DNA of 35,273 nucleotides from a virus, in IMG/VR virus record IMGVR_UViG_3300044294_000577, positions 1 to 35,273 of that record, one strand, 5' to 3'. Below are positions 5,890 to 26,323 of the stretch, one piece after another; the stretch's first letter is position 1; every line of letters begins with the position of its first letter. The notes under the pieces were generated by a model that was not told the origin of the DNA, ran no database searches, and saw only the letters and a program-made list of their open reading frames with translations. Both the position numbers and the translations under genes were made by a program.

Positions 5890-6747
5890 TTAGATCCTGG
5901 ACGGCCGTACGCGCGAGCGCCGCTCAACGGTCAGGAGCGGATCGCCCGTCGCCGTGACGAACTGGGTCTCCTCGACAATGTAGGCAGGCGTCCGGCGTGG
6001 CGCCTGCGGGACGGACTGGATGTCCTGGCTAAGGCGCCGCGCTGCGCTTCGGACGATATCGCAGCCCTGCAGCAGGAGCGTGCGCCCCTCCTCCCAGCGG
6101 CTGTTGGCGAACCGCTCGATCTCCGCCTTCTCGGCCTCTGTCGGCTCGCGTTCCTCGGCCTTGATCTTCGCGGCCTTGGTCTTGGCGATGACCCGATGGT
6201 TGATCCACTGCGGCCAGGACTCGTCAATGCAGACGCGCTGCATCTCGTCGCGCACCGCCTTGGGCATCAGGTCGTTGATAGACTTCCAGCGCGCCAGGAC
6301 CTGGGCGGCGCGTTGCTGCCGCTCGAGCCCTTCCTCTTCGCCGACCACCGCCCCGGGACGAGACATCGCCGAATCCCAGATCGCCGCCACTTCGCGGGCC
6401 TCGAGGTCGCGGAACTCCACGCCGCGGTAGTCGACAACGCTGGTCGGCGTCGAAATGTCGACGGCGGTCGGAACGGACGGACCACCGCTCATGGCGGCGC
6501 GGTAGAGGCTGGCGTATGTTCCGGCGGCGCGGTGATCGATCTCCCGGATCCAGCCATTGGCCAGAGCCGCGTCCAGGGGGTTGGTGGCCTTGGTGATGTC
6601 ATCGCATAGCGCTTGCCTGCGTTCGATCACCACCGCGTTCTTCGGATTGACTGGCTTCAGGCGTCCCGAGGGGTAGCGATCCCCCTCCTTGCGCGGACGG
6701 CCCTGACGGGCTCGCAGGCTCTTCGCCCTCTTGGCCTTCTTCGACAT
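5890..6747 (-). CDS. Phage protein with basic GRPRK N-terminus, unknown function (285 aa)
   Basis: The 285-residue product begins with a very basic segment (KKAKRAKSLRARQGRPRKEG) that resembles an AT-hook, followed by RYPSGRLKPVN, a signature I associate with phage proteins encoded near the terminases of alphaproteobacterial phages. The middle is mostly helical with many charged residues (for example about residues 190-215, KTKAAKIKAEEREPTEAEKA). No enzyme motif is visible. A DNA-binding or regulatory role is an inference from the basic tail. It begins 1 base after the stop of the upstream gene, so it belongs to the leftward operon, and is probably its last gene before the terminator at 5858-5881. 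Confidence 0.7.
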   Translation of the reverse strand: MSKKAKRAKSLRARQGRPRKEGDRYPSGRLKPVNPKNAVVIERRQALCDDITKATNPLDAALANGWIREIDHRAAGTYASLYRAAMSGGPSVPTAVDISTPTSVVDYRGVEFRDLEAREVAAIWDSAMSRPGAVVGEEEGLERQQRAAQVLARWKSINDLMPKAVRDEMQRVCIDESWPQWINHRVIAKTKAAKIKAEEREPTEAEKAEIERFANSRWEEGRTLLLQGCDIVRSAARRLSQDIQSVPQAPRRTPAYIVEETQFVTATGDPLLTVERRSRVRPSRI

Positions 6748-6748
6748 G

Positions 6749-7027
6749 CTAGGTTCCCGACGTGGTGGGCGCGCTGGCCTTTGGCTTCAACGCGTGCTGG
6801 TTTCCAACGGCCTCGCAGATGCGTTCCCACGTCGACTGCTCCATGAACCGCCAATGACTGTTTTGTCCCTTGGTTCTGGTATTCGCTCCATCCACCTCGG
6901 CGTATTTTTTTAGCAGGTCCTTCCCGGCGCTGGCGGTGTGCTTGGCGCAGATGAACGGCCTGTCCGGCTTGGTCGGTTTCCCGGTCCGGCGACAGTCGAG
7001 GACGATGCAGCAGGGGTGGTTCGTCAC
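6749..7027 (-). CDS. Small putative zinc-binding phage protein (92 aa)
   Basis: The 92-residue protein begins MTNHPCCIVLDCRRTGKPTK and continues PFICAKHTASA. The cysteines at about 6, 7 and 12 and a later C-x-x-H pair could hold one zinc ion. The rest is basic and helical. The start is a GTG at 7027 that overlaps the stop of the replication gene (GTGA), and the gene is followed 1 base later by the next one. It may be a DNA- or RNA-binding accessory factor, but nothing here proves it. Confidence 0.6.
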   Translation of the reverse strand: MTNHPCCIVLDCRRTGKPTKPDRPFICAKHTASAGKDLLKKYAEVDGANTRTKGQNSHWRFMEQSTWERICEAVGNQHALKPKASAPTTSGT

Positions 7028-8340
7028 GCCGCGACCTCCATCGCCTCGAGCAGCAGATCAACGCCCAGGCGGCTGAACAGCGCGCCGCACTGGCTCCGGA
7101 GGCGGGGGAAGGCCGTGGCCGAGTGGCAGACGATGGTTCGGCCTGGCAGGTCACGCCAGGAGCACGGGTCGAGGTAGGTCCGGGCGAATGTCTCGCCGGC
7201 CTGCTCCCCGGCTGCGCCGCCGCCTCGGGCCACGGCGACATGGGCCACGACATCGCTGCGGATGTCCTCAGGCCCGACCCAGCAGCTGGCGCGCTCGGGC
7301 TCCGGCGCCGAGCCCTTTGGCAGGTGGATCTTCCAATCGCCGCGTTTGAGCCAGGTCACGATCCCAGGCACCGCCCTGCCCTCCCGGGCCTTGGCCGTGG
7401 CTGAGCGGGCGAATTCGCGCACCGCATCCAGCAGTGCGTCCTGCCCGCCGGCCTCCCTGGCGATGTCGGGCCACAGGGCCTCGGCCTGGGCGATCTTGGT
7501 TCGGCCGATCTCGGGGTAGGCGTCGAAGGCTTCCCGAAACCGACTTCCTTCAGGCGGCGCGTCACCCCCCGGCAAGGGGGGTAGGGGGGATAAGATTCTA
7601 TTATGTTCTATTGCGTCCGCACTGCGTTCGCACTGCGTGCGCACCGCGTTCGCAGTGGGTTCGCCCTGCGTCTGCACTGCGTCCGCACCGGGTTCGCGCT
7701 GCGCACGCGGTGCGTCCTGTTCCGCGACGCCCTGCGTCTGCACTGCGAACGCACTGCGTTCATGGTTCGTTCGCGAATGGGCTTCAGCTGGGTCTTCGCC
7801 AGCCTCGCCCCCCTGCTCTGCCTGGGCAACGGCTTCGACCACCGCCGGCTTGGCCAGAACCTTGGCCTTCGGGTTCAGGCGGCGCAGGCGGATGGCGAGA
7901 TCGGCCATCTCGGCCTGAAGGTCACGACCACCGCTCAGGGCTTTTCCCTGACTGGCGTTGCCCTTGGCGCCGGCGGCCTTCATCGTCAGGTGTTCGAGCA
8001 TCTGCTCCAAGGCCTTCTCGGCCACGACGGGGTGATACCAGCGCCCGTCGGCGCAGAGGCAGAACCCGGCCATCACCTCGTCCTTGATCGCCAGCCATTG
8101 ATTCATGGCGCGGCTGAACCCGGCCATGCCGGCCAGTTCGCGATCGTTGTTATCGAGTGAGGCGGCTGGGGTCTGCTGCCATGCGGCGCACCAGAGGATA
8201 ACAGAGGTACGGAACACCTCGGGGTTCTCATGGTTGGCGATGCTGCTGTCGCGCAGGCGCTGGACGTCCAGGAGCATGCTCGGCAGGTGGGCCACGGTGC
8301 TGTCCGGAGGCGTCAGGGGCTGTGGGAGGGGCACGATCAT
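7024..8340 (-). CDS. Phage replication protein with DUF1376-like N-terminus
   Basis: This 438-residue protein is the probable replication initiator. Residues about 20-110 follow the DUF1376/YdaU winged-helix pattern (LPSMLLDVQRLRDS, VILWCAAWQQTPAASLD, WLAIKDEVMAGF, DGRWYHPVVAEKALEQM). Residues about 189-243 are a low-complexity segment with an 11-residue period (ADAVQTQGEPT, ANAVRTQCERS) that is simply the translation of a DNA repeat array. The C-terminal part reads FREAFDAYPEIGRTKIAQAE and ends VTWLKRGDWKIHLP, as in phage O-like proteins. The start ATG follows the dnaB stop directly (TAGATG). DnaB upstream and the internal iterons support a role like lambda O: bind the iterons and load helicase. 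Confidence 0.82.
   Translation of the reverse strand: MIVPLPQPLTPPDSTVAHLPSMLLDVQRLRDSSIANHENPEVFRTSVILWCAAWQQTPAASLDNNDRELAGMAGFSRAMNQWLAIKDEVMAGFCLCADGRWYHPVVAEKALEQMLEHLTMKAAGAKGNASQGKALSGGRDLQAEMADLAIRLRRLNPKAKVLAKPAVVEAVAQAEQGGEAGEDPAEAHSRTNHERSAFAVQTQGVAEQDAPRAQREPGADAVQTQGEPTANAVRTQCERSADAIEHNRILSPLPPLPGGDAPPEGSRFREAFDAYPEIGRTKIAQAEALWPDIAREAGGQDALLDAVREFARSATAKAREGRAVPGIVTWLKRGDWKIHLPKGSAPEPERASCWVGPEDIRSDVVAHVAVARGGGAAGEQAGETFARTYLDPCSWRDLPGRTIVCHSATAFPRLRSQCGALFSRLGVDLLLEAMEVAA
7590..7611. other. AT-rich stretch beside the iterons (candidate DNA unwinding element)
   Basis: Eighteen of 22 bases are A or T in a region otherwise rich in G and C, and TTCTAT occurs twice, 10 bases apart. 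On its left lies a perfect CCCCCC/GGGGGG inverted repeat (7565-7581) and a second G run. Position directly beside the tandem array fits an unwinding element of a replication origin; this is inferred. Confidence 0.55.
7612..7776. repeat. Fifteen tandem 11-bp iterons inside the replication gene (candidate origin)
   Basis: The 165 bases divide exactly into fifteen 11-bp units with consensus TGCGTTCGCAC. Units 1, 2, 3, 6, 7, 12 and 13 are near-perfect; units 4, 5, 8, 9 and 14 are related; 10, 11 and 15 are weak. Each good unit contains the inverted repeat TGCG-N2-CGCA. Because 11 is not a multiple of 3, the reading frame rotates and the protein shows an 11-residue period. A period of 11 bp puts all units on about the same face of the helix. 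In lambda, the origin lies as iterons in gene O next to an AT-rich stretch, and the arrangement here is the same in outline. Confidence 0.8.
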
Positions 8341-9837
8341 CTAGGCGTCTCCGGTCTGGAAGCTGCGGGTGTGGGCGTTGTCACGGGCCTGCGCGAAGTA
8401 GGTCGAGCGGGCGAGGTTGCCGAACCGGGTCAGGTCGGCGTCAAAGGACAGGCGGACGGTCCCGATGGGGCCGTGGCGCTGCTTTGCGATGATCAGCTCG
8501 GCGAGGCCCTGGACCTTGTCCATATCCTCGAGCCAGGCGATGTGCTCAGGCGTGCCCTCGCGGGGCTCTTTCTGTCCGACGTAGTACGCCTCCCGATAGA
8601 CGAACCACACCATGTCGGCGTCCTGCTCGATCGATCCGGATTCGCGTAGGTCGGACAGCTGGGGCCGTTTGTCGTCGCGCTGCTCGACGAGGCGGCTCAA
8701 CTGGGACAGTGCAATGATCGGACAGCCGAGCTCTTTCGCCAGGGCTTTGAGGCCCATGGTGATCTCACTCACTTGCTGAACTCGATTTGCTCCAGCGCCA
8801 AGCGTTGAAGTCACCAGTTGCAGGTAATCGACCACAATCAGGTCTAGGCCGTATTGGCGCTTATGCCTGCGAGCCCTGGCGACGAGCTTTGAAAGTGAAA
8901 TACCGCCGGTATCGTCGATCCATAGCGGCATTTCCTGAAGTTCGATCGCGGCGTCGCGAACCTTGCCGAACTCGTGGGCCTGGATCTCACCCTTGCGGAT
9001 CCGGTCGGAGCTGACGCCGGCCGCAGCGGCCAGCATCCGCATGGCCAACTGCTCCTTGCTCATTTCCAGGCTGTAGAGCAGGACGCGACCGCCTGAGACG
9101 GTCTTGCGCGTCCCGTCAGGCATGTCCTGGTAGGCGTAGCGCTGGGCGACTGTGTGGGCGATGTTGCCGGCCAAGGCGCTCTTACCCATGGCCGGACGCC
9201 CGGCCAGGATGATCAGGTCAGGCGACTGCAGGCCGCCGATCTTCTGGTCCAGGTCGACCAGCTCCGTCGCGATGCCAGTGATGCCGCCGTCGCGGTTATA
9301 GGCCTCGGCGGCCATGCCCAGCGCGCCGGCCGCAGCTTCGGCGAAGGAACGCGGCCCGGAACTGGCCTCACCGGCCTCGGCCAGGCCGTACAGCGTCTGT
9401 TCGGCCTCCTCGACCAGTTCGCTGGCAGGATGCTCCCCTGCCCTCGCCGCGGCGGAAATCTCGGCGCCGATGTTGATCAGGGTCCGGCGCGCGGCCAGTT
9501 CCTCGAGGGTCTTGGCATAGTCCAGGACATAGGCCGACGGCGGCGCGTCGCGGACCAGGCCGGCGAAGTACGCCATGCCGCCCGTTTCGTGGAACGCAGG
9601 GTCGCTCTGCAGGTCGGCGGCGAGCAGCGTGGGGTCGGCCAGCACGCCCTTGCGGATCTGCTTCTCCAGCGCCGTGAAAATCCGGCCGTTGTACGGCTCG
9701 AAGAACGTCGAGGCCCTGGTGTGGCTCAGCCGCTCATAGGCGCCGTTGTCGATCAGCAGGATGCCCAGCAGGGCCATCTCTGCTTCGAGGCTATGGGGCA
9801 GGCCCTCAGCGACGAAGGCGGCGTTACCGTCAGCCAT
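8341..9837 (-). CDS. dnaB: Replicative DNA helicase, DnaB family
   Basis: The 498-residue product (from the ATG at 9837) unwinds DNA at the fork. The N-terminal domain starts PHSLEAEMALLGILLIDN. The RecA-like motor shows Walker A GRPAMGKS (213-220), LLYSLEMSKEQL, Walker B LDLIVVDYLQLV (331-342) and the arginine-rich late motifs (LSQLSRLVEQRDDKRPQLSD, then EQDADMVWFVYR). Length is slightly above that of E. coli DnaB (471 aa). The frame is open 18 codons further upstream, but the ATG at 9837 has GGAG 6 bases before it and overlaps the upstream gene. With DnaG at 14561 and the initiator next door, the phage supplies most of its own replisome. Confidence 0.95.
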   Translation of the reverse strand: MADGNAAFVAEGLPHSLEAEMALLGILLIDNGAYERLSHTRASTFFEPYNGRIFTALEKQIRKGVLADPTLLAADLQSDPAFHETGGMAYFAGLVRDAPPSAYVLDYAKTLEELAARRTLINIGAEISAAARAGEHPASELVEEAEQTLYGLAEAGEASSGPRSFAEAAAGALGMAAEAYNRDGGITGIATELVDLDQKIGGLQSPDLIILAGRPAMGKSALAGNIAHTVAQRYAYQDMPDGTRKTVSGGRVLLYSLEMSKEQLAMRMLAAAAGVSSDRIRKGEIQAHEFGKVRDAAIELQEMPLWIDDTGGISLSKLVARARRHKRQYGLDLIVVDYLQLVTSTLGAGANRVQQVSEITMGLKALAKELGCPIIALSQLSRLVEQRDDKRPQLSDLRESGSIEQDADMVWFVYREAYYVGQKEPREGTPEHIAWLEDMDKVQGLAELIIAKQRHGPIGTVRLSFDADLTRFGNLARSTYFAQARDNAHTRSFQTGDA

Positions 9838-10180
9838 TGTCGTCTCCAGCGTACGGCAGGCCAAGGTGCAGCCTCTTGATGGCCTGATCACAGGCGCAGT
9901 CGGACTTCGAGAGCACTGCGGCGGCGGCGGACTGCAGCTTGAGTGCAGCGTCGACCCAGCCCCAGGCCTTCTCGGCCTTGGCGAGCGACATCCGCACCAG
10001 TTCGGCGGCGTCGGCGCGGCGCCCTTTGGCCCTACGAACGAAATCCTCGTCCGGCCGGTCCCTGTTGGCCCGCTCCCAGCCCTCGGCGCGCTTGATCAGG
10101 TCGTCATGCTCGAGCCACGCCGGCGGATCGATGATCCGGGCCAGCCCCTCGAGGTCCTGGGTCTTAGCCAGATCAGCCAT
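9830..10180 (-). CDS. Unknown protein encoded upstream of dnaB (116 aa)
   Basis: A 116-residue mostly helical protein, rich in Ala, Asp and Arg (MADLAKTQDLEGLARIIDPP, then KAEKAWGWVDAALKLQSAAAA). Two cysteines lie close together near the end (SDCACDQ). I do not recognise the family. It starts at ATG 10180 with GAGG 7 bases upstream, overlaps its upstream neighbour by 8 bases and dnaB by 8 bases. It is therefore fixed between two replication-operon genes and may help load or regulate DnaB, which is a guess from position only. Confidence 0.6.
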   Translation of the reverse strand: MADLAKTQDLEGLARIIDPPAWLEHDDLIKRAEGWERANRDRPDEDFVRRAKGRRADAAELVRMSLAKAEKAWGWVDAALKLQSAAAAVLSKSDCACDQAIKRLHLGLPYAGDDNG

Positions 10181-11336: not shown

Positions 11337-11668
11337 CGTGCACCGACCGCGCGCTTGCCGCTCTCGGTTTTGAGCAGGCGGGTCATCATCAGACACGACC
11401 CTTCGGTCGTGGCGGCGATGTAGACGACGCCGACCACCGCGATCTTCCAGAGCGCGCCGCTGGTCAGGGCCGGCCAGACCGTGCCCATGATCAGCAGCTG
11501 GGTGATGTACCAGACGCCGTTGGAGGCCCAGGCGGCCCGCCGGTGATAGGCGACGTCACCGCCGTTGCGGCTGCGGCTGACCCAGGTGAAGGCCATGTTC
11601 TGCACGAAGGCCGTCGCGCCGAGGATTGGCAGCAGCGCCCAGAACGGCAGGTGCGACAGGTAGTTCAT
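11333..11668 (-). CDS. Small integral membrane protein with three predicted segments (111 aa)
   Basis: The 111-residue product shows three hydrophobic stretches, at about residues 7-29 (LPFWALLPILGATAFVQNM), 47-68 (WASNGVWYITQLLIMGTVW) and 73-95 (LWKIAVVGVVYIAATTEGS), with short charged loops and a basic C-terminus. It begins with an ATGA overlap with the DndC-like gene and ends with one into the zinc-site gene, so it is firmly in the operon. I cannot name it. A small membrane protein among replication genes might anchor replication or affect the host membrane. Confidence 0.7.
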   Translation of the reverse strand: MNYLSHLPFWALLPILGATAFVQNMAFTWVSRSRNGGDVAYHRRAAWASNGVWYITQLLIMGTVWPALTSGALWKIAVVGVVYIAATTEGSCLMMTRLLKTESGKRAVGAR

Positions 11669-12948
11669 GACCCGAAAATCCCTAGAAGCGGTTGAACGGA
11701 GCCGTCGGCGTAGACGGCGGGCATGGGCGTATCGGCGCGCGGCTCGTCGCCGGCCCAGCCGTTCGGCCAGGTCTTGGCGGCTATCAGCTCGCGGATGCGC
11801 GCCTCTTCCTCGGCGTTGAGCATGTCGACGCCCGGCCGGCCGAGCACGGCGGCGGCCTCGTTGACTTCACGCTGGATGGTCAGGATCGCTTCCAGGGCCC
11901 AGAGGCGCGCTTCAAAGGTGAGCGGGCCCATGCGCTGCTTGTTCTTGGCCTTGGCGATCGAGCCGTCCGCGTTGATGCCCGTCTTCTTCAGCCGGTTTCG
12001 AGGCAGTCGGAGAGCACGGTAGACGGCCTTGATCCGCAGCAGCGGCCGGAGATGATCCCAACCGGGCATGGCGACGATGGCCGCCAGGGCCTTATCCTTG
12101 TCGACAAGCGGACAGCCGATGCAGCCGGTGCGGGCATTGATCTCTTCTGCTTCGTCACCGCCGTAGGCGTCGGCCAGGATCGCCGTAGGCCAGGCGCCGT
12201 ACTGCTGCATCGGCGCAAAGATCTTCAGCCAGTCCCACACCGAGCAGACCCGCCAGTGCAGCAGGGGCGCGAGCGTGGCGATGCGGCCGTTCACCGCCTT
12301 CGATTCCGGCAGGACCTGCTGATACCAGCCCTGGCCGCACTCACCGCCGTCCTTCGAGCAGGACATCGCGATCCGAGCGTCCCGAACAGCGCTCTCGCCC
12401 TGACGGACGCCCGTGATCATCAGGATGTTGCCGTCGATCTCCTCTATGCGGGGGATCAAGGCCGCCGCCATGGGCTCGACCTTGATTTGGCCCGTGCACC
12501 AGCGGAACGTGTTGCTAGGGGGCGGGACGCCACGGCCGAGGATGTAGACCAAGAAGCGGTCGTCGATGGGCGCCATGACGACCTCGACCCGGATCCCCAG
12601 ATCGCGCAGCTTTGCGATGATCAGGTTTGCTGCAGCCTGTAGCGGCGGCAGCTCCTGGCGCGTGTCGGCGTAGAAGATCGTCAGCGACTTCGGCGGCTTC
12701 AGCAGGCCAGCCGCGATGAAGTAGACGATCAGGGTCAAGATCGCGGTGCTGTCTTTGCCGCCCGACCATGCGAGCGCCCAGTGTTCGTGCTCGGCGCCGT
12801 ACTGCTGCAACGAGGCGAGAGTCATGGCCGCGGCGTCGCCCACGGGCAGCCGGTCGGCCGCGCCCGTGAGCAGGTCCGTCCTGATGCGACGCGGCTTATC
12901 CCCGGCCAGCGCCGACGAAACAGCGTTCATTTCTCCGAATGAGTTCAA
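11665..12948 (-). CDS. PP-loop ATPase of the PAPS reductase/DndC-like family
   Basis: This 427-residue protein carries the PP-loop SGGKDS (62-67), which adenylates a substrate with ATP. Further family marks are YADTRQELPPL (93-103), FRWCTGQIKVEPM with C151, TGVRQGES (179-186) and TGCIGCPLVDKDKAL with C276 and C279. The arrangement of one Cys plus a later C-x-x-C matches DndC, whose cysteines hold an iron-sulfur cluster for DNA phosphorothioation. No DndA, DndD or DndE gene is visible in this window, so the real substrate is open. The start may be the TTG at 12948, which has GGGGAGG 5 bases upstream and overlaps the primase stop, or the ATG at 12930. Confidence 0.85.
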   Translation of the reverse strand: MNSFGEMNAVSSALAGDKPRRIRTDLLTGAADRLPVGDAAAMTLASLQQYGAEHEHWALAWSGGKDSTAILTLIVYFIAAGLLKPPKSLTIFYADTRQELPPLQAAANLIIAKLRDLGIRVEVVMAPIDDRFLVYILGRGVPPPSNTFRWCTGQIKVEPMAAALIPRIEEIDGNILMITGVRQGESAVRDARIAMSCSKDGGECGQGWYQQVLPESKAVNGRIATLAPLLHWRVCSVWDWLKIFAPMQQYGAWPTAILADAYGGDEAEEINARTGCIGCPLVDKDKALAAIVAMPGWDHLRPLLRIKAVYRALRLPRNRLKKTGINADGSIAKAKNKQRMGPLTFEARLWALEAILTIQREVNEAAAVLGRPGVDMLNAEEEARIRELIAAKTWPNGWAGDEPRADTPMPAVYADGSVQPLLGIFGS

Positions 12949-14561
12949 GCTGCCCTCCCCTGCACCTGGTGCTGGGCGTCGCGGATCTGCTCATCGAGCA
13001 CGGCGCGATCGGCCTTGAGGCGCGCAATGTCGGCGACAGCGCCGGGCGCGCTGAAATCGGCGGCGAGGCCCTCGATCGAGCGGTCCAGATCGTCTCGGGC
13101 CACCAGCAGGTCAGCCAGGCGCGCCTGCTCGTCACTGAGCTTGGGGCTATTGAGCAGGGCCTGGAGCAGCCGCCGGCCGGTGTGGCCGTCGCCGCGCGCC
13201 ATCATCGCAGTGGCGGCCTTCAGGGCGTCCGAGGCGCCCATGACGATCGACGGCCTGGCGTATCGGGCGGAATTGGCGCGCTGCGGCGGTGCGAACATCG
13301 CGTCACAGCGGGCGATCAGCTCGCGGCGATAGGCCTCTGCCAGATCCTTGTCGCGGATGGTGTAGGCCAACTCGCGCAGACGATGGCGCAGGCCCGCCTT
13401 GGCTTCCGGCGTCCTGAACACCTCCGACGAGGTTTCCATGGTCCAGAGCGCGTCGACGAGGGCGACGCTGTCGCGCATCTGCGCCACTACCGCCTCCGGA
13501 CCCTGTTCGCGCAGAACGTCGTCAGGATCCTTGCCGCCCTTGGGCGTTGCGAACCGGAAGCTTCGCCGCGGCTGCAGCAGCGGCAAGGCGCGGTCGATGG
13601 TCCGGCGCGCGGCGCGCTGGCCAGCAGCGTCGCCGTCGAAGCAGAGCGTCGGCTCGGGATGAATGCGCCAGAGGATTTCCATCTGGTCTTCGCCCAGTGC
13701 GGTGCCCATGGCGGCGACGGCCGCCACCCCCGCGCGCTGGCAGGTGATGGCGTCCATGTACCCCTCGACCACCGCCAGCGGCGCGGCGGCGTGGGCCGGC
13801 AGAAGGCGGCGGGCTTCGGCCAGGCCGTAGAGCACCCTCCCCTTGTGAAAGACGCTCGTCTCTGGCCCGTTCAGGTACTTGGCGCGGGCAGCGGGATCGA
13901 GGGCCCGGCCGCCGAAGCTGATCACGCGGCCCTTGCCGTCGGTGATCGGAAACATAACGCGGTTACGGAAGCGGTCGTATGGCGCGCTGCCGTCCTCGGG
14001 GGCGATCAGCAGGCCGGCCTCGACCAGCTCACCCGGGCGCGCGCCCTTGGCGACGAGGTAGTCCTTCAGCGCCGTGCGGCTCTCGGGCGCAAACCCGATG
14101 CGGAACCGGCCCCATTCAGTCGAGGGGAAGCCTCGGCCCGACAGGTAGCGCTGGGCGTCGCCGCCGACCGGGCGGCGCAGCTGGTCCTCGAACCACTTCG
14201 CCGCCAGCTCAAGCCATTCGATCAGACCACCGCGTCGCTTATCCTCGGCAGCTGATCGCGGGTCGTGGACCGGCAGCGCCATGCCCGCCTCGCTGGCCAG
14301 GCGCTCGACCGCCTCGACGAACGTCAGGCTCTCGGTCTCCTGCAGGAAGCTGATGACGTCGCCGTGCTTGCCGCTGGAGAAGCAGTGATAGAACCCCTTC
14401 TCGTCGTTCACGAAGAACGACGGGCTCTTCTCCTTGGCGAAGGGCGAAAGGCCCGCATATTCGCGGCCTTGTCGGCGCAGCTTCACGCTCTTGCCGATCA
14501 GGTCCGAGGGCCGGATCCGCGCCTTCAGCTCGTCCAGAAAGCGTTCGTCGAAGCGGCTCAT
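12945..14561 (-). CDS. dnaG: DNA primase, DnaG family
   Basis: The 538-residue product makes RNA primers for replication. The N-terminal domain aligns with the CHC2 zinc finger, but of its four ligands only C60 remains: the C-P-F-H of E. coli reads SPFA (39-42) and the second cysteine of the C-F-x-C pair is S63 (CFSSGKHGD). The RNA polymerase domain has RVMFPITDGKGRVISFGGR (201-219), and the TOPRIM site has EGYMD (266-270) and DGDAAG (309-314). The C-terminal part is shorter than in host DnaG. I recall the same zinc-finger loss in alphaproteobacterial DnaG, so it probably reflects host descent. It overlaps both neighbours by 4 bases. Confidence 0.93.
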   Translation of the reverse strand: MSRFDERFLDELKARIRPSDLIGKSVKLRRQGREYAGLSPFAKEKSPSFFVNDEKGFYHCFSSGKHGDVISFLQETESLTFVEAVERLASEAGMALPVHDPRSAAEDKRRGGLIEWLELAAKWFEDQLRRPVGGDAQRYLSGRGFPSTEWGRFRIGFAPESRTALKDYLVAKGARPGELVEAGLLIAPEDGSAPYDRFRNRVMFPITDGKGRVISFGGRALDPAARAKYLNGPETSVFHKGRVLYGLAEARRLLPAHAAAPLAVVEGYMDAITCQRAGVAAVAAMGTALGEDQMEILWRIHPEPTLCFDGDAAGQRAARRTIDRALPLLQPRRSFRFATPKGGKDPDDVLREQGPEAVVAQMRDSVALVDALWTMETSSEVFRTPEAKAGLRHRLRELAYTIRDKDLAEAYRRELIARCDAMFAPPQRANSARYARPSIVMGASDALKAATAMMARGDGHTGRRLLQALLNSPKLSDEQARLADLLVARDDLDRSIEGLAADFSAPGAVADIARLKADRAVLDEQIRDAQHQVQGRAA

Positions 14562-25225: not shown

Positions 25226-25254
25226 TTGGACCGTCCACCACGACGGAGCCGACG

Positions 25255-25377
25255 ATGCGGCAGCCCATCATCCCCCCCGACCAGAGCCCGGCTCAGCCTA
25301 CGGGTATTGAGCCTGGCTGGCTGCTGGTTGTTGTCGGCGCTGTCGTGGTGGCGCTGGCGCAATGGGCGGGCCTGTGA
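25255..25377 (+). CDS. Tiny single-pass membrane protein, first gene of the rightward operon (40 aa)
   Basis: Forty residues: a proline-rich start (MRQPIIPPDQSPAQPTGIEP) and one membrane helix (GWLLVVVGAVVVALAQWAGL). GGAG lies 6 bases before the ATG, and the stop overlaps the next start (TGATG). It is the first coding sequence after the rightward promoter, so it should be made early in induction. Function unknown. Confidence 0.6.
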   Translation: MRQPIIPPDQSPAQPTGIEPGWLLVVVGAVVVALAQWAGL

Positions 25378-25592
25378 TGGGCCGGGCGTCGACACGGATC
25401 GACATGGCGCTTGGCCATCTGGCCAAAGGCCCAGCGACCGGCGCGCAGCTGGCCGATGTTCTGTGCACCCACACCGGCGATATCGCTCGCATGATGAGCC
25501 AGCTGGTCGAGAAGGGGCGCGTGCGCCGCATCGACGGCGGCTCTGGGCGCGGATCGGTTGCGATCTACGCCCTGCCCCACCCTCACATCTGA
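25377..25592 (+). CDS. Small winged-helix DNA-binding protein (71 aa)
   Basis: From the ATG at 25377 the product has 71 residues, GRASTRIDMALGHLAKGPAT, then GAQLADVLCTHTGDIARMMS and QLVEKGRVRRIDGGSGRGSV. This is a compact winged helix like those of MarR or FaeA-type regulators. The start overlaps the stop of the previous gene. It may regulate the rightward operon or bind near the switch; no evidence beyond the fold. Confidence 0.7.
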   Translation: MGRASTRIDMALGHLAKGPATGAQLADVLCTHTGDIARMMSQLVEKGRVRRIDGGSGRGSVAIYALPHPHI

Positions 25593-25600
25593 GAGACGCC

Positions 25601-26315
<715 letters not shown>

Positions 26316-26323
<8 letters not shown>

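Follow-up and report, generated by a model that had tools for sequence, protein, structure and literature searches.

The DNA analysed here, a virus record of 35,273 bp from IMG/VR with a GC content of 66%, is referred to below as the window. Its replication genes, the predicted parts of the initiator protein and the DNA elements found inside the initiator gene are as follows.

7024-8340, minus strand: replication initiator gene, an ORF of 438 amino acids that matches the PHROG 22470 replication protein
8341-9891, minus strand: DnaB-type replicative helicase gene, directly upstream of the initiator gene
12945-14561, minus strand: DnaG-type primase gene of the same replication module
7951-8265, minus strand: predicted N-terminal winged-helix domain, residues 26-130, pLDDT mostly >90
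7549-7800, minus strand: disordered linker, residues 181-264, pLDDT <50 for nearly all residues
7324-7542, minus strand: predicted C-terminal helical domain, residues 267-339
7612-7776, minus strand: 11-bp iteron array of about 14 recognisable units, gene-sense consensus GTGCGAACGCA
7618-7758, no strand: 11 CGCA-N-TGCG dyads with at most one mismatch, every one of them on the 11-bp grid
7590-7611, minus strand: AT-rich stretch, candidate DNA unwinding element, gene sense ATAGAACATAATAGAATCTTAT
7565-7589, minus strand: C6-TA-C6-TTGCC-G6 inverted-repeat block, candidate third origin element

The neighbourhood of the DnaB and initiator genes is also kept in the close relatives L095-L097. A PAPS-reductase-like protein (11665-12948; PHROG 12882, E 7e-199) sits in the replication module of the window, and a gene annotated as PAPS reductase is also found near in-gene iterons in Acinetobacter phage phiAC-1. 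The 838-residue ORF at 14558-17074 matches phage DNA helicase profiles as well as an N6/N4 DNA methylase domain, a helicase-methyltransferase fusion. Elsewhere in the window, the hexamer ACGCCG is repeated 12 times at 26103-26176 and is translated into an Asp-Ala run near the C terminus of the ORF at 25226-26323, for which no family was found.

The match of the initiator to PHROG 22470 (E 1.9e-29) covers residues 5-133, that is, the N-terminal domain. The only match in a Pfam scan is DUF1376 (PF07120), which at 26.0 bits (E 1.2e-5) is below the Pfam gathering threshold of 30.1; the scan gave no match to Phage_rep_O, the family of lambda O, or to the RepA_N model (PF06970). Comparison of the window subfamily (A3) with DUF1376 (A4) by hhalign resulted in an E value of 2e-4 and a probability of 46%. 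The initiator belongs to PHROG 22470, and its link to DUF1376 is probable but below threshold. The N-terminal domains of DUF1376 and Lin1244_N align with a probability of 98% and, judged by this profile comparison, are homologous winged helices.

An AlphaFold2 model of the initiator, built on 79 relatives, consists of a confident N-terminal winged helix, the disordered linker, which is the product of the array region, and a C-terminal helical domain. The N-terminal domain again gave a confident winged helix when modelled in isolation and is presumed to be the iteron binder, whereas the C-terminal domain presumably contacts the helicase or another partner. A profile search of PDB sequences with the initiator matched nothing. 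The top Foldseek matches of the N-terminal domain are the RepA_N initiators 5kbj, 4pta and 4pql, and these are weak (E 0.2-0.3, Z 3.7-4.6); the likeness to the fold of the DnaD NTD has a Z of 3.5. A viral structure library gave matches of the domain to DUF1376 proteins (E 3e-11) and weak ones to proteins named replisome organiser. DUF1376 and Lin1244_N proteins (e.g. L066 and L081, and the A4/A5 consensus) carry a conserved K..KA..SA..RW motif directly before the array, and this motif possibly takes part in DNA binding.

The repeat had been described in the original prediction as fifteen 11-bp units at 7612-7776, each with TGCG-N2-CGCA. The period-11 array inside the 438-residue ORF stands, and fifteen frames of 11 bp can indeed be set out up to 7776, but the claimed regularity of the units does not hold. 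Tandem Repeats Finder (TRF) run on the record reports a period of 11 with 13.5 copies at 7612-7759 and 68% identity between copies. The lag-11 identity over 150 bp is 93 at the array, compared to a maximum of 59 elsewhere in the record; in 200 genomes simulated with a first-order Markov model it never exceeded 68. One of the fifteen, at 7722 (CCGCGACGCCC), agrees at 3 of 8 positions and cannot be counted as a unit, and TGCG-N2-CGCA is exact in only five of the fifteen, with four more having one mismatch (9 of 15 within one mismatch). Compared to related iteron genes, the copies in the window are more numerous, but more degenerate.

The iterons carry imperfect inverted repeats, which can be read as TGCG-NN-CGCA or as CGCA-N-TGCG dyads. 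The centre of the dyad is ambiguous, isolated sites in relatives keeping CGCA-N-TGCG better than TGCG-NN-CGCA. The 11 dyads of the CGCA-N-TGCG kind have their low ends at 7750, 7739, 7728, 7706, 7695, 7673, 7662, 7651, 7640, 7629 and 7618; the synonymous null has a mean of 2.6, and none of 2000 recodings reaches 11. Neighbouring sites 11 bp apart are on nearly one face of the DNA. With about 10.5 bp per turn, however, 15 units accumulate a drift of roughly two thirds of a turn, so that the proposed placement of all units on the same face is approximate only.

Two elements that the original prediction did not contain lie next to the array. The AT-rich stretch at 7590-7611 touches the array on the gene-downstream side and is the most AT-rich 22-mer of the record (82% AT, a value that is reached by 2 of the 35252 windows of this size, overlapping and both at 7590-7611). 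It is followed, further in the gene-downstream direction, by the C6/G6 inverted repeat. The folding energy of the C6/G6 hairpin is not exceptional, being no better than that of shuffles, and the argument for the block therefore rests on conservation and not on folding. In a wider set of TGCG loci the AT content of the 3' flank exceeds that of the 5' flank in 30 of 52, a slight bias, which limits the AT argument to the window and its near relatives; outside these, a short direct repeat serves as the second element. GC skew shows no turn across 7.6 kb, where one had been suggested as a check, and is uninformative.

Relatives were found by a scan with the N-terminal alignment; a scan of viral and genome contigs with the full-length initiator gave no confirmed relatives. 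The N-terminal domain is 84% identical to that of the window in L095 and 62% identical in both L096 and L097, while the linkers of all three encode peptides unlike that of the window. Nevertheless, sites matching CGCANTGCG with at most one mismatch number 6, 8 and 7 in L095, L096 and L097, respectively, where synonymous shuffles lead one to expect 1.0, 1.5 and 1.9 (none of 2000 shuffles in each case reaches the observed number). The spacing of these sites is a multiple of 11 or of 11-12 bp, even across missing copies. The finding is the opposite of a protein that is kept while the DNA period is lost: the relatives have lost the linker protein and kept the sites. Relatives of the window family are also present in genome assemblies of Betaproteobacteria, Alphaproteobacteria and Gammaproteobacteria, where they are probably prophages.

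Downstream of the sites, a stretch rich in AT or purines and then CCCCCC(T/A)ACCCCCCTTG..GGGGGG are present in the window and in each of L095-L097. When 2.9 million viral contigs were searched for exact copies of the C6/G6 block, four contigs were found, namely L095-L097 and L412. In the last of these, the block is at the corresponding place of a DUF1376 initiator gene that has different repeats and is unrelated in other respects. More distant relatives have a repeated AGGGAC hexamer as the second element. L412 reads the block in phase 2 instead of phase 1, and phase 0 is used for its looser forms in the Hali and Solano phages; the AGGGAC repeat is used in all three frames (QGQG in 12 cases, TGTG in 4 and RDRD in 1). 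Such reading of the same DNA in different frames directly indicates that it is the DNA that is conserved.

The claim that the DNA repeat and not the peptide is kept is supported by these sites and frame changes, and also by a synonymous null, in which the same peptide was recoded 20,000 times with the codon usage of the phage. None of the 20,000 recodings attains the observed period-11 signal (z of 5.6 for lag 11 and 7.1 for the self-consensus), and TGCG..CGCA occurs 5 times in the array where 0.32 are expected under recoding. Agreement with the unit consensus is as good at codon position 3 as it is at positions 1 and 2 (45, 39 and 42 of 55). A peptide-level explanation of the repeat was considered and is rejected in view of the synonymous nulls together with the changes of frame.

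The layout extends well beyond this phage. A pattern of three exact units matches 83 viral contigs, and of 22 representative ORFs examined, 17 are DUF1376 (12) or Lin1244_N (5) proteins. To avoid circularity, loci were also picked by the N-terminal part of the protein only. In DUF1376 loci chosen in this way, TGCG..CGCA occurs at 0.94 per kb in the gene versus 0.03 per kb outside it, and in Lin1244_N loci at 3.2 per kb versus 0. Most protein-picked members that lack TGCG..CGCA have another repeat of 11, 12 or 22-24 bp at that place, followed by a direct repeat of 5-7 bp. A synonymous-shuffle test gives p<0.01 for 48 of 157 nonredundant initiator genes compared to 2 of 129 control ORFs; about two thirds of the 157 do not reach this level, and in some members (e.g. 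L137-L139) no array is detectable.

Among named phages, the TGCG type is carried by Vibrio phage 1.052.A, Acinetobacter phage phiAC-1 and Paracoccus phage Pkon1, and the Crassaminicella plasmid pCT01 carries a diverged form of the iteron, TGCAAACGCA. One 10-mer is common to phages of 31-68% GC, with a diverged form in a clostridial plasmid. Genes of DUF1376, Lin1244_N and PHROGs 22470, 3992 and 9327 have TGCGAACGCA, or other iterons of 11-12 or 22-24 bp, in the same linker. We are somewhat inclined to think that DUF1376, Lin1244_N/DUF4373, PHROG 22470 and their kin form one very large set of initiators, each of which has its origin within the linker part of the gene that encodes it. The common layout would be iterons at every one or two helical turns plus an unwinding tract that is AT-rich or made of short repeats, sometimes with a C/G inverted repeat; a near-identical TGCGAACGCA would range from clostridial plasmids to proteobacterial phages, and elsewhere the iterons would turn over with the binding domain. 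The suggested 'distinct version', if taken to mean one peculiar to this phage, does not hold, as the layout is found across the initiator family.

Repeat units were also encountered in other settings. Short TGCGACCGCA arrays between genes are present in L054 (3208-3239), L067 (4713-4744), L018, L022, L031 and their kin (about 65% GC). They stand just 3' of a RepA/AAA-type helicase gene and are probably intergenic origins, in which the same 10-mer belongs to a different replication system. L042 (2358-2389), L053 and L065 have three TGCGGTCGCA units close to a terminase-like gene, in DNA that looks noncoding; no DUF1376-type protein was recognised near them. In L073, a contig of 32% GC, an array of ten TGCGTTCGCAT units (5973-6081) is outside any recognised initiator gene and is followed by very AT-rich DNA.

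Three DNA elements, conservation of the DNA independent of the protein, a disordered linker, a predicted winged helix and a helicase neighbour were all computed. From the sequence we infer that the initiator binds the array and that replication starts there. Taken together, array, AT-rich stretch and C/G block would be a phage replication origin inside the gene of its own initiator, a reading to which we assign a probability of about 0.85. An in-gene origin as in lambda O, as originally proposed, is the best reading in view of the AT-rich 22-mer, the conserved sites and the family-wide tests. The N-terminal winged helix would bind the 11-bp iterons, likely as dimers on the CGCA-N-TGCG dyads, one per helical turn. 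The filled array might wrap or strain the DNA, causing the adjacent 22-bp AT-rich stretch to melt. The flexible linker, itself translated from the origin, would tether the C-terminal domain, and this domain would then recruit the phage DnaB encoded by the neighbouring gene, and then the primase.

A disordered, tolerant linker is a place where slippage could have produced a tandem duplication, or a peptide repeat, that has no role as DNA. Slippage does generate tandem arrays, and the copies here are only 68% identical. This very divergence argues against recent slippage alone, because position 3 should then have drifted most, whereas it is no less well kept than positions 1 and 2. In relatives the peptides differ while scattered sites stay in register with the 11-bp grid, the frame in which the downstream block and the hexamers are read is not constant, and a single 10-mer recurs in phages of widely differing GC content and, diverged, in the clostridial plasmid. 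An explanation by slippage or peptide is therefore highly improbable. Slightly less so, yet still improbable, is an array serving as an operator for autorepression of the replication operon, or as a parS-like partition or a pac packaging site. Iteron arrays of initiators often have a regulatory role as well, and the regular spacing of the dyads would also suit a ParB-like protein or a repressor. The array, however, is in the middle of the initiator gene rather than at a promoter, has the AT-rich or short-repeat element constantly on one side, and goes with replication-initiator families in unrelated phages.

It is also conceivable, though unlikely, that the array is an origin whose iterons are read by a host factor or another phage protein, with the DUF1376-type protein acting as a DnaD/DnaT-like primosome component or helicase loader. 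PHROG annotations include 'primosomal protein', the fold has the resemblance to the DnaD NTD mentioned above, and a near-identical iteron accompanies two initiator families. The N-terminal domains of both families, however, are homologous winged helices, the array is directly behind this domain in most loci, and members of the initiator family differ in their iteron sequence, which is what reading of the iterons by the initiator would lead one to expect. Reading of the iterons by the initiator itself remains the preferred interpretation.

In-gene iteron origins are known as a kind, and lambda has another inverted repeat on the far side of its AT tract. The best reading is that the window origin would work like lambda ori, with a protein that gives no sequence match to the lambda O family. 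In lambda, iterons and an AT tract are within gene O; as in the window, the origin of lambda and of the Stx phages lies midway in the initiator gene, its iterons contain imperfect inverted repeats, and an AT-rich tract adjoins them on one side (PMC7466680). The iterons of lambda (4) and of the Stx phages (6) are about 19 bp long, compared to about 11-14 iterons of 11 bp and of another sequence in the window. Unlike lambda O, the window initiator lacks a Pfam lambda O match, and its phage encodes its own DnaB and primase.

RepA_N-type plasmids have iterons within the rep coding sequence that are bound by an N-terminal winged helix (PMC3155836, PMC7145576). The initiators of pSK1, pSK41 and pAD1 resemble that of the window in both respects, the winged helix of the latter being predicted and its binding to iterons presumed, but the structural scores are weak, there is no Pfam match, and the iterons, C-terminal domains and hosts differ. 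SPP1 has oriL within gene 38 (PMC6316719), and 80alpha has an in-gene origin with the replisome organiser ORF20 (PMC5499656). Like the window, SPP1 oriL/G38P and 80alpha ORF20 combine direct repeats and an AT-rich element in the initiator's own gene with adjoining phage helicase genes. SPP1 and 80alpha, however, are Firmicute phages with different repeats, and the likeness to G38P found here is one of layout. In the open-licence literature no description of an origin was found for DUF1376, Lin1244_N/DUF4373 or PHROG 22470/3992/9327, and a search of open-licence papers for the iteron 10-mer gave nothing relevant. What appears to be new, and undescribed in that literature, is the 11-bp iteron version in a large initiator family, with the unwinding tract and the C/G block kept as DNA.

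Mapped origins exist for few phages. If the interpretation given here is true, the origins of many DUF1376- and DUF4373-type phages and phage-plasmids could be read from the linker of the initiator gene. One stretch of DNA would be both an origin and a disordered linker, in which the DNA visibly overrides the protein, as in the C/G block read in three frames. The system would allow a test of whether initiators and iterons change together, and would yield small two-part replicons for vector building.
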